Below, piece after piece: positions 35,975 through 40,167 of a DNA stretch of 64,000 nt; position 1 is the first letter of the stretch; each line of letters starts with the position of its first letter. The notes under the pieces are model-generated. The model saw only the letters and a list, made by a program, of their open reading frames with translations, was not told where the DNA came from and searched no databases. The translations under genes were made by a program, and so were the position numbers. The DNA is taken from assembly GCA_012519655.1 (NCBI GenBank), contig JAAYPS010000131.1:35856-99855 (forward strand), read 5' to 3'. Source of the DNA: Clostridiaceae bacterium. Its GTDB lineage: Bacteria; Bacillota; Clostridia; DSM-8532.

Positions 35975-36697
35975 GTGCGTGAATCAAAGGGTATTTTATT
36001 TGTAACATTCGTACTATTAGGAATGGTTTTAGCAATGCAATCTAGAACCATCTTATTGGCTAAACAGCAAAATGTTGTTGGGCAAACTTCTGTCCAGTCT
36101 TTGTCTGCCGAACTTGAGCATGAGAAAAATGAAGGATTAAGGTTGCAGGAAGAGCTGCATAAGCTTGAAGAAAGAGAAGCTGAAATAATGAGGCAGATTA
36201 GTAATGAAGGTAACCCAATGATAAATGAGCTTTTGAATAAAAGACATCTTCTACAGACAATTAATGGATTTACAGATGTTGAAGGTAGTGGTGTAATTAT
36301 TACCTTAGATGATGCACCTGCAAGGAATGAAATGGATCCGAGTCAATTAATCATTCATGATTCTGACATTATCAACATTTTGAATGAGTTAAGAGCTGCT
36401 GGCGCGCAAGCCTTTGCAATAAATGATGAACGCATAATAGCTACCAGTAAGCAATTATGCGCAGGACCGACCATACTAATCAATCGTAACAGATATCCTG
36501 TGCCCTATGTTGTAAAAGCCATAGGCGATCCAGATGAATTATTTAATGCACTTGAACAAAGTGAGGTTGTAACTATTATGAGAATATATGATATACAAGT
36601 GAGCATTAGGAAGGAATCGGACATAGTCATACCAAGATACAGAGCATACAAAAATACCGAAAGCATGATATCCGGTTTGGAGGTAGTTGAAAAATGA
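35975..36697 (+). CDS. DUF881 family protein (GTG start)
   Basis: TM, coiled coil, GSGVIITLDDAP, NELRAAGAQAFAINDERI; GTG 35975 behind aaagggagg. Confidence 0.85.
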   Translation: MRESKGILFVTFVLLGMVLAMQSRTILLAKQQNVVGQTSVQSLSAELEHEKNEGLRLQEELHKLEEREAEIMRQISNEGNPMINELLNKRHLLQTINGFTDVEGSGVIITLDDAPARNEMDPSQLIIHDSDIINILNELRAAGAQAFAINDERIIATSKQLCAGPTILINRNRYPVPYVVKAIGDPDELFNALEQSEVVTIMRIYDIQVSIRKESDIVIPRYRAYKNTESMISGLEVVEK

Positions 36698-37389
36698 AAT
36701 TATTTAGAGATGCTGCTATAACAGTTGTTTGTTTATTGTTAGGTATTATTTTATCTGTACAATACAGGAGTGTGAAGATTAACAACACTGTTGCTGTTTA
36801 TGAGCAGCAAAGAGTAAATGATTTGATTACCGACCTTTTACGTGAACAGGAAAACAACGAGCAGCTCCAAAAAAGAATAGATGATTTACAAAAAGACCTT
36901 GAAAACCTTCGTACTGGTACAAATAGTGAAAATGAGACAATACAAGAGTTGAGAAAGGACATCGAGGAATTAGAAATTCTCGCAGGTCTTAAAACCGTAA
37001 AAGGTGCTGGCATAATTGTAACCATCGACAGCATGGGACTGTCTCCAGTTGATGACAGCCATATTCTTACTGTCTTGAATGAGTTAAAGGCAACTGACGT
37101 GCAGGCACTTGCAGTAAATGATGAAAGAATTATAGCTACAACCGAAGTTAGAAGGGCGGGTAGCTATATGATGGTAAATGGTAGAAAACTATTGCCACCA
37201 TATATAATAAAGGCTATTGCCGATCCCGAGAAGCTGGAAAATTCGCTTACCATTATGGCTGGTGTTGTGGATACTTTGAAATACTATGATATAAAAGTGG
37301 ATATTAAACAAGATGAGAATGTTATCATACCAGCAGTACGTGATGACGGAACGGTTTTGCGTTATGATCTTTTAGAACCCGTACATTAA
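36694..37389 (+). CDS. DUF881 family protein, second copy
   Basis: TM, coiled coil, GAGIIVTIDSMG, NELKATDVQALAVNDERI; ATGA overlap. Confidence 0.87.
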   Translation: MKLFRDAAITVVCLLLGIILSVQYRSVKINNTVAVYEQQRVNDLITDLLREQENNEQLQKRIDDLQKDLENLRTGTNSENETIQELRKDIEELEILAGLKTVKGAGIIVTIDSMGLSPVDDSHILTVLNELKATDVQALAVNDERIIATTEVRRAGSYMMVNGRKLLPPYIIKAIADPEKLENSLTIMAGVVDTLKYYDIKVDIKQDENVIIPAVRDDGTVLRYDLLEPVH

Positions 37390-37528
37390 TGCGTTGTCAT
37401 TCAAATTCCCGTTGAAGAGTGCATAGAGAAAAACCTTTATTGTGGCATTTTGTGATGTAACACAAAAGCCTTTATTAAGCTTGTAATTTTTTTTATGAAT
37501 TGACTATATATATAATACTAGGAATATC

Positions 37529-37613
37529 AAGAGCAGTTGAAAGGATAATGTGTATACTACAAAATCCATTCAAATCTTAAGTAGTAGATGTGCTTAAGAA
37601 ATGCTCTTTTTTT
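37529..37613 (+). ncRNA. Candidate three-way-junction RNA / attenuator ending in a U-tract, upstream of pdaA-like gene
   Basis: Closing stem AAGAGCA/TGCTCTT plus stems TTGAAAGGAT/ATCCATTCAA and TCTTAAG/CTTAAGA, then T7; hand-folded. Confidence 0.45.
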
Positions 37614-37626
37614 GTTGGTAAAAGAT

Positions 37627-38556
37627 ATGAAAAGAAAATTAGGCATAGCATTGATCATACTTATGATATTAGTATCATTAATTACCTATGATGCATTGAT
37701 CTCCACACGACATAAATTAGGAGATGGAAAGGATAAAACACTATTTGAACTTAGTTTCAATGACCTCGATTTTGAGAATGAAATAACCACATTAAGTGAT
37801 ACATACTCTTCACCCGCATCACATACGTATCAGACTGCAAATTCTGTAAATACCATTAGAGGGTGGGGGCTTGTTCGTGTGAAGGACAATAAAACACCCA
37901 AGGCAGATCCAGGGGCTCCAGAGCTTTTAAAAAAGTATAACAGCATTTATGTTGCTGATACTGATAGCCCCGTAATATACCTTACTTTCGATGAAGGATA
38001 TGAAGCAGGGTTTACACCCGATATACTGGATTGTTTAAAAGAACATAATGTCAATGCCATCTTTTTTATTACTGGACCATATCTAAATCAGCACGAGGAT
38101 TTGGTTCGCAGAATGGTGGAAGAAGGGCATGCAGTGGGAAATCATACTGTAGGTCATTATAGTCTCCCTACGCTAAGTGACGAGAAAATGCAGAAAGAAG
38201 TTACAGAGTTGGACAGTGTTTTCTATGAAAAATTCAAAAAACATATGGTTTTCCTAAGGCCTCCAAAAGGTGAGTATAGCGAACACTCACTCAAAGTTAC
38301 TTCTCAAATGGGATATATTAATGTATTCTGGAGCCTTGCTTATAATGATTGGGATAGAAACAACCAGAAAGGTTGGGAAAATGCTTATAATAAAGTGATG
38401 CCAAACCTTCACAATGGTGCGATTATATTGCTACACGCTGTATCCAGTGATAATGCTCAGGCCCTTGATCGCATTATCACAGACACAAGAAAGAAAGGAT
38501 ATGAGTTTGGAAATGTGTTTGATCTAATAGATTTCGCACGGGGGGATGGCCAATGA
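37627..38556 (+). CDS. pdaA: Polysaccharide deacetylase, PdaA-like; start uncertain (37588/37615/37627)
   Basis: VIYLTFDEGYEAGFTPDIL, AIFFITGPYL, GNHTVGHYSLP, LRPPKGEYS. Confidence 0.85.
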   Translation: MKRKLGIALIILMILVSLITYDALISTRHKLGDGKDKTLFELSFNDLDFENEITTLSDTYSSPASHTYQTANSVNTIRGWGLVRVKDNKTPKADPGAPELLKKYNSIYVADTDSPVIYLTFDEGYEAGFTPDILDCLKEHNVNAIFFITGPYLNQHEDLVRRMVEEGHAVGNHTVGHYSLPTLSDEKMQKEVTELDSVFYEKFKKHMVFLRPPKGEYSEHSLKVTSQMGYINVFWSLAYNDWDRNNQKGWENAYNKVMPNLHNGAIILLHAVSSDNAQALDRIITDTRKKGYEFGNVFDLIDFARGDGQ

Positions 38557-38864
38557 GAAAAAGAAGACACAGTAAGTCTAATAAGAGAAAAAAAGAGTCT
38601 ACAACAGTTAAAGAAAAAGTAGCCAAGATTCTTGAGATACCAGAAGAAGTGGTGTCTGATCGTCCCAAAATTACTACAGTAGGAAGAAAAGAGGTTTTCG
38701 TTGAGAACTACCGCGGCATTATTGAATTCACAAATGAAATTGTGAGAATCAATTCAAACTATGGAGTAATAACAATTACCGGCAAGAACATGAAAATTCG
38801 TGAGATTACAAATGAAGATATAGTAATCATTGGTGACATAGATAATATTGATTATGTAGTTTAA
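38553..38864 (+). CDS. yqfC: Sporulation protein YqfC
   Basis: YabP/YqfC-like small protein directly upstream of yqfD. Confidence 0.88.
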   Translation: MRKRRHSKSNKRKKESTTVKEKVAKILEIPEEVVSDRPKITTVGRKEVFVENYRGIIEFTNEIVRINSNYGVITITGKNMKIREITNEDIVIIGDIDNIDYVV

Positions 38865-38973: not shown

Positions 38974-40167
38974 ATGTTCCTTATTAGATTATGGCATTAT
39001 TTAAAAGGGTATGTTATTATAATTGTAAACGGACAGTCTGTCGAAAAGTTTATTAATATCTGTACCCGAAGACAGATTTTACTTTGGGATATGGAGAGAG
39101 TGGAGCGGAATTCAGTCCGTATGAAAATGAGCATCCGCGGCTTTAAGAATGCCCGTACTGCTGCCAGAAAATCCCGATGTAGGATGCGGATTTTAGAAAA
39201 AAAAGGTTTCCCTTTCCTTTTTGGGAAATACAAAAAAAGAAAAGGCTTTGTTTTAGGTCTTATTGTATTTGCAGTATTGATATATTTTATGACATCTATT
39301 ATTTGGTCTATTGATATTACCGGAAATTATCATGTAAAAGCCGATAAGTTAATAGAGCAAATGAGCGAATATGGAATATACAGAGGGGCGTCAAAAAGAG
39401 CAATAGATCCTAAATTTTTGGCAGATATGTTAATGCTAAAAAACAGGCAACTATCTTGGGTGGGTGTTGAGATTAAAGGAACAAGGCTTCTTATTTCGGT
39501 AAAAGAAGGTGTTGAAACACCTATGATTATTCCATTGGATCAACCCTGTAATGTGGTTGCAAAAAATGATGGGATAATTGTTTCGATTATTGCTAAAAAT
39601 GGATTGGCATTGGTGAAAGAAGGAGATACTGTTAGAAGAGGTCAAGTGTTGATTACTGGCATATTGGAAAGTAAATATCCTGAATTTGGCTCGAAACAGG
39701 TACATGCAATAGGAGAAGTAGTGGCGCGTACCTGGTATGAGATAAAAAAAGAAGTTCCTAAAATTAAAGTAAACAGAATGAGAACGGGGTTGGAATGGAA
39801 TAAGTATAGTATTTACTTTCTTGATTTGAAAGTAAGGCTCCCTTCCGGGAAAAACCCGTTCGAGCTATATGAATCAAATATTATTGATAAAGCTCCGGTA
39901 ATAGGGAACAAATTCAAACTTCCTTTTGGTATTGTCGTCGAAAAGTATTACGAATTGGAAGAAGAAGAACAGGTGCTTGATCAACAGCAGGCAAGGGAAA
40001 TTGCAGAAAATATGGCAGTTGAGGAAATTCAACAAGTTGTTCCCAAAGATGCTGAAATAGTAGAACGACAGTTGCAGTTCTTTGCAGAAGATGAAAAAGA
40101 ATATATTTCTATAACAGTCGAATGTACTGAAGATATTGCAGCGCAACAGGAAATTGGAGGGAATTAA
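38974..40167 (+). CDS. yqfD: Sporulation protein YqfD
   Basis: N-term GYVIIIVNGQSVEKFINICTRRQILLWD; follows yqfC, precedes phoH. Confidence 0.92.
   Translation: MFLIRLWHYLKGYVIIIVNGQSVEKFINICTRRQILLWDMERVERNSVRMKMSIRGFKNARTAARKSRCRMRILEKKGFPFLFGKYKKRKGFVLGLIVFAVLIYFMTSIIWSIDITGNYHVKADKLIEQMSEYGIYRGASKRAIDPKFLADMLMLKNRQLSWVGVEIKGTRLLISVKEGVETPMIIPLDQPCNVVAKNDGIIVSIIAKNGLALVKEGDTVRRGQVLITGILESKYPEFGSKQVHAIGEVVARTWYEIKKEVPKIKVNRMRTGLEWNKYSIYFLDLKVRLPSGKNPFELYESNIIDKAPVIGNKFKLPFGIVVEKYYELEEEEQVLDQQQAREIAENMAVEEIQQVVPKDAEIVERQLQFFAEDEKEYISITVECTEDIAAQQEIGGN

Follow-up and report, generated by a model that had tools for sequence, protein, structure and literature searches.

A conserved stop signal in the leader of the spore-cortex gene pdaA probably keeps it quiet or low

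Throughout a family of sporulating Clostridia, the spore-cortex gene pdaA lies behind a leader stop signal that probably keeps it quiet or low. We located this element at 37520–37613 on the forward strand of the window (the whole 64,000-nt stretch of DNA analysed here), where a compact three-way-junction RNA ends in a U-tract directly before the gene. The element is real and absent from RNA databases. We lean towards a passive promoter-proximal terminator in the leader of the pdaA-yqfC-yqfD operon, which would insulate and dampen the operon and require no ligand; a riboswitch or a small RNA, both considered in a preliminary description of the locus, is less likely.

The gene downstream, earlier called pdaA-like, is a genuine pdaA (37627–38556, forward strand), as its product, a delta-lactam-biosynthetic de-N-acetylase of the spore cortex, matches the equivalog model TIGR02884 with 299.9 bits against a cut-off of 298. 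It is followed on the same strand by yqfC (38553–38864; TIGR02856, 90.6 bits against a cut-off of 77.8), whose start overlaps the end of pdaA by 4 nt, by yqfD (38974–40167; PF06898, E = 1.5e-125) and by phoH. Two DUF881 genes precede pdaA, the second of which (36694–37389, forward strand; PF05949, E = 4.6e-34) is co-directional with it. At 37430–37485, upstream of the promoter described below, a direct repeat CCTTTATT flanks an inverted repeat, TTTTGTG/CACAAAA; this repeat region is present in the source genome and absent from its three congeners.

In the leader RNA, the closing stem P1 pairs AAGAGCA (37529–37535) with TGCTCTT (37602–37608). It encloses P2, formed by TTGAAAGGAT (37537–37546) and ATCCATTCAA (37564–37573) with one A-A mismatch, and P3, formed by TCTTAAG (37575–37581) and CTTAAGA (37593–37599), all on the forward strand. 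P1 runs straight into a T7 tract (37607–37613), followed after 13 nt by the pdaA ATG at 37627. The preliminary description had placed the stems, the T-run and the ATG correctly to the base, and the three-way junction it had drawn from the letters is exactly the RNAfold structure of 37520–37615 (MFE −24.7 kcal/mol). None of 200 dinucleotide shuffles was as stable (mean −14.4, z = −3.77). Taking AGGA as the start, letters and fold together predict a leader RNA of about 94 nt that ends in an intrinsic terminator. A plain terminator scan overlooks the element because its loop exceeds the loop size of the scan. The pdaA reading frame extends without a stop as far back as an ATG at 37588, near P3, and automatic annotation may place the PdaA start 13 codons too early, within the terminator.

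Searching the whole window with Rfam 15 gave no match at the gathering score; matches up to E = 10 were at chance level and none was credible in the leader. A BLAST search of the genome for extra copies returned the element alone, and covariance model R1 found a single place in the source genome, the pdaA leader (E = 7.9e-22). The model was built from six leaders, and the two left out, from G012 and G007, were recovered with E = 7.9e-14 and 1.2e-7, both at the pdaA leader, the G012 match running into pdaA. Strong matches occurred once per genome and before pdaA only. Among 291 genomes of the class there was no match outside the genus; among those listed from this set, the family was represented by genera g1, g2 and g7. 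No matching description was found in the literature on sporulation-gene attenuation or the pdaA leader.

Transcription of the leader would begin at a sigma-E-like promoter (37487–37514, forward strand) that is conserved in 25 family loci and consists of a −35 box GTAATTTT, an A+T-rich spacer and a −10 region TATATATAAT at 37505–37514, with the −10 phase ambiguous within a TATATATA run. The −10-like sequence reported before does exist and is conserved; conservation is stronger, however, for the pair G[TG][AC]ATTTT-N14-16-ATATAAT/ATATATA, which is not the sigma-70 pair that had been named. To place this motif, we scored it over 2.4 Mb of the congener G001 (1665 genes), with KMATATT-like −35, about 14 nt and CATACAMT-like −10 as the sigma-E comparison pattern; sigma-E-type genes of G001 were recognised from conserved motifs. 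The motif ranked 3 before ylbJ, 4 before cwlD, 6 before pdaA and 57 before spoIIIAA, in a list where it is weak before spoIID and spoIVA (annotated starts used) and where many non-sporulation genes also score. The ylbJ, cwlD and spoIIIAA homologues carry the motif with an N14 spacer. As its boxes resemble those before these three genes, the pdaA-leader promoter likely uses sigma E. The sigma-E genes of C. difficile include cwlD, a ylbJ-like gene and yqfC-yqfD, while its pdaA belongs to sigma G (PMC3789822), so that expression of pdaA in the forespore is possible.

Behind the 287 sigma-E-like promoters of G001 there were 30 terminator candidates, mostly weak, and we rejected a general habit of terminators at such promoters in this genome; the pdaA leader is an outlier among the 287 and by far the strongest (−37.3 kcal/mol, T7). 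The cwlD leader of G001 (G001:C1, about 575350–575440) has a weak AAACGTA/TACGTTT hairpin with T5 downstream of its sigma-E-like promoter. Searching with the g2 promoter pattern gave a match at the pdaA locus alone. Promoters of g2 and g7 (L021, L022, L023, L027, L029, L033–L036) carry TGTCC between −35 and −10, kept across the two genera; its other strand reads GGACA, often GGACAGG or GGACAAG, which we take to resemble the SpoIIID consensus site.

To follow the leader in relatives, we collected the locus with the PdaA protein from 32 family genomes, most of which are MAGs of the anaerobic-digester type that carry the label Clostridiaceae or Clostridiales; six of the 32 (G005, G010, G011, G020, G029 and G030) had no usable leader. 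All 25 loci assembled with the promoter (24 and G012) share one order of elements: the DUF881 stop, G[TG][AC]ATTTT with ATATAAT/ATATATA, an AGGA-like sequence taken as the start site, a junction or single hairpin, T5–T7, and pdaA. The hairpin and its Ts lie within about 10 nt of the promoter-like boxes and are followed by pdaA-yqfC-yqfD, so that in each of these loci a terminator stands between the predicted promoter and the first codon, as in an attenuator leader. G009 has the hairpin and T-run and no recognisable promoter close to the contig end, and wherever a family leader is assembled, T5–T7 occupies this position. Outside the family, G032 has a promoter-like sequence with the terminator absent, and in G056 and G089 the terminator precedes the promoter.

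The three-way junction was the independent fold of all seven leaders tested from g1 (the source genus), g4 and g5, and formed in 9–17% of the shuffled versions of each; the collections searched contain eight three-way-junction sequences in all. In an alignment of the paired arms alone of seven sequences, hand-picked from the folds and hence biased towards structure, 92.9% of cells were paired compared with 82.6% after shuffling, and both sides had changed in 10 of 22 pairs; sliding the partners left about half the pairing. P3 was clearest, with all five counted pairs double-changed and 100% of cells paired, and in P2 four of ten pairs had changed on both sides in the seven sequences. P1, whose 3′ arm is supported by both this set and the family rows, was 93.8% paired over 16 distinct family rows (81.1% shuffled) with a covariation score of 0.442 (0.202 shuffled; 0/500). 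Covariation scores of P1 and of the three-way junction exceeded those of 500 shuffles and all slid controls. The stems are thus kept upstream of pdaA orthologues with compensatory changes, the opposite of the outcome named beforehand as refuting, and the earlier proposal of a terminator-type leader element before pdaA holds for a conserved, covarying structure. Its position, structure, covariation, conservation and element order are all read directly from the sequence.

Elsewhere in the family the shape is different. The g6 leader is one imperfect hairpin, and that of g2 and g7 folds into a hairpin, GAGTCATT..AATGGCTC, of about 25 nt, followed by T5–6, with a predicted transcript of about 38–42 nt. 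What stays constant across genera is P1, the U-tract and how far they lie from the promoter, whereas P2 and P3 are not kept. As topology differs among genera while P1 and the U-tract stay, the terminator is the constant part, and the absence of P2 and P3 from other genera makes an aptamer unlikely as a shared function. The three-way junction of g1, g4 and g5 is a terminator whose loop has gained two extra stems; elsewhere the terminator is a single hairpin.

Together, these data suggest a model where polymerase starts at the sigma-E-like promoter and makes a leader of about 35–145 nt: P1 would fold directly on the U-tract, and a fraction of polymerases would stop before pdaA. The same terminator would block read-through from the adjoining DUF881 operon. 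In G001–G003, the DUF881 stop is 11–12 nt before the −35 box, so close that there is no room for another terminator between them, and polymerase leaving the upstream operon would therefore meet the pdaA-leader terminator as its first stop. Such a passive terminator would insulate the cortex genes outside sporulation and set a low, fixed expression level in the mother cell. Each step of the model, from the sigma factor and the start site to termination itself and the insulating and dampening role, is an inference. The B. subtilis sigG leader (PMC5942855), which likewise has secondary structure before a sporulation gene, is a precedent for leader hairpins that insulate and dampen, though by another route: a block on expression by read-through from the upstream operon is proposed for one hairpin, and another dampens 2–4 fold, but both act on translation whereas the pdaA leader has a U-tract terminator. 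The transcript of sigG itself, moreover, cannot form the read-through hairpin, whereas the pdaA terminator is in its own leader.

A passive stop alone leaves the upkeep of P2 and P3 by compensatory changes in three genera unexplained, and a protein or ribosome as yet unseen could make the terminator switchable. Were a protein or other factor to bind the leader at the right sporulation stage and prevent termination, the element would be a timed switch for cortex genes, a reading we hold to be possible but doubtful. The operon is developmental, the terminator is strictly conserved on the sole path to pdaA in g1, g4, g5 and g6, and P2 keeps GAA..AT/AT..TTC across three genera. However, junction and hairpin versions share P1 and the U-tract and no other sequence element, no candidate binding protein was identified, and the nascent leaders offered no alternative structure: in 10 of 11, the P1 5′ arm was not fully sequestered, seven of these having at most one edge pair, or none, there. 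In these ten the arm is thus not fully taken up before the 3′ arm emerges, and none showed a clear antiterminator. Bacillota transcription attenuators and terminator-type riboswitch leaders comprise a promoter, a short leader, an intrinsic terminator and the gene; the pdaA locus has the same order of elements, but its leader showed neither an aptamer nor an antiterminator nor a conserved leader peptide, and its terminator can be a single hairpin. A developmental termination checkpoint, at which a sporulation-stage factor or leader translation overrides the terminator so that cortex enzymes await a morphological cue, with the junction as sensor in three genera, appears unlikely.

Ribosome-coupled attenuation in the source genus, with GAAAGGA in P2 as Shine-Dalgarno sequence and translation of an NPF-containing ORF opening the stems, is very unlikely. 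In each of the four congeners a start codon lies five codons before an in-frame NPF, with AAAGG 3–4 nt upstream, but pairing of the arm AATCCRTTC forces the NPF, neither the start codons (ATG, GTG, TTG, TTG) nor the lengths are constant, the frames were chosen after the fact, g4 has no Shine-Dalgarno-like arm, and g2 and g7 have no equivalent. We therefore rejected a leader peptide, which is confined to the source genus and accounted for by stem pairing. The possible ORF itself (10–17 codons; 37548–37580 in the window and in congeners L010–L012) has its start codon directly after GAAAGGA and may be stem-forced. fthC and similar uORF motifs (PMC11109978) likewise combine a purine-rich Shine-Dalgarno-like arm, a possible small ORF and an intrinsic terminator in one leader, but the pdaA-leader ORF is not conserved outside the genus and is forced by pairing.

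We give very little credence to the element as a terminator of the DUF881 operon only, with the boxes unused and pdaA transcribed by read-through or from an undetected promoter. The lack of space for any other terminator before the boxes in G001–G003 fits this reading, but across genera no part of the intergenic region is better conserved than the boxes with their spacing, and in g1, g4, g5 and g6 a further promoter would have hardly any room downstream. The earlier remark that no second promoter has room holds for these four genera but not for g7 and some g2 loci, where the terminator and pdaA lie tens of nucleotides apart. In L021 and L023, TTGCGCTGCGCAA-like palindromes, repeated in L023, fill this gap in the longer g7 leader.

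A metabolite riboswitch with the terminator stem as its P1 is very unlikely, even though a three-way junction that is compact, covaries and closes on a U-tract would suit one. The purine riboswitch is a compact three-way junction with kissing loops, and the pdaA leader resembles it in its junction and short linkers; it differs in having no Rfam hit, no conserved core and a P1 that is itself the terminator stem. The TACTA/TAGTA complementarity from which a kissing contact had been proposed is present, but it is private to the source genome (0 of 7 relatives) and shuffled loops equal it in 12.5% of trials, so that we rejected it as a functional contact. No conserved aptamer nucleotides were found in loops or junction, which vary in g1 and g4 and thus even within a genus, and the hairpin of g2 and g7, which does the same job, leaves no room for an aptamer; g6 too has a hairpin alone. 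Least credible is a trans-acting small RNA gene with pdaA expressed by read-through, since, despite its own promoter-like boxes, terminator and a product of about 94 nt, it has few unpaired positions and no conserved single-stranded seed, shrinks to about 38 nt in g2, and lies always directly before pdaA with no strong match elsewhere.

Control of the sporulation sigma cascade is mostly described at the promoter level. With its constant place behind a sporulation-type promoter and ahead of the cortex operon pdaA-yqfC-yqfD, the terminator would be a clean case of control at the level of termination, or at least of insulation. Regulated override would, if true, be the interesting case, and it is possible. 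A riboswitch-like RNA in one genome can prove to be an enlarged terminator once relatives are compared, and here the terminator is kept across the family though its shape is rebuilt.
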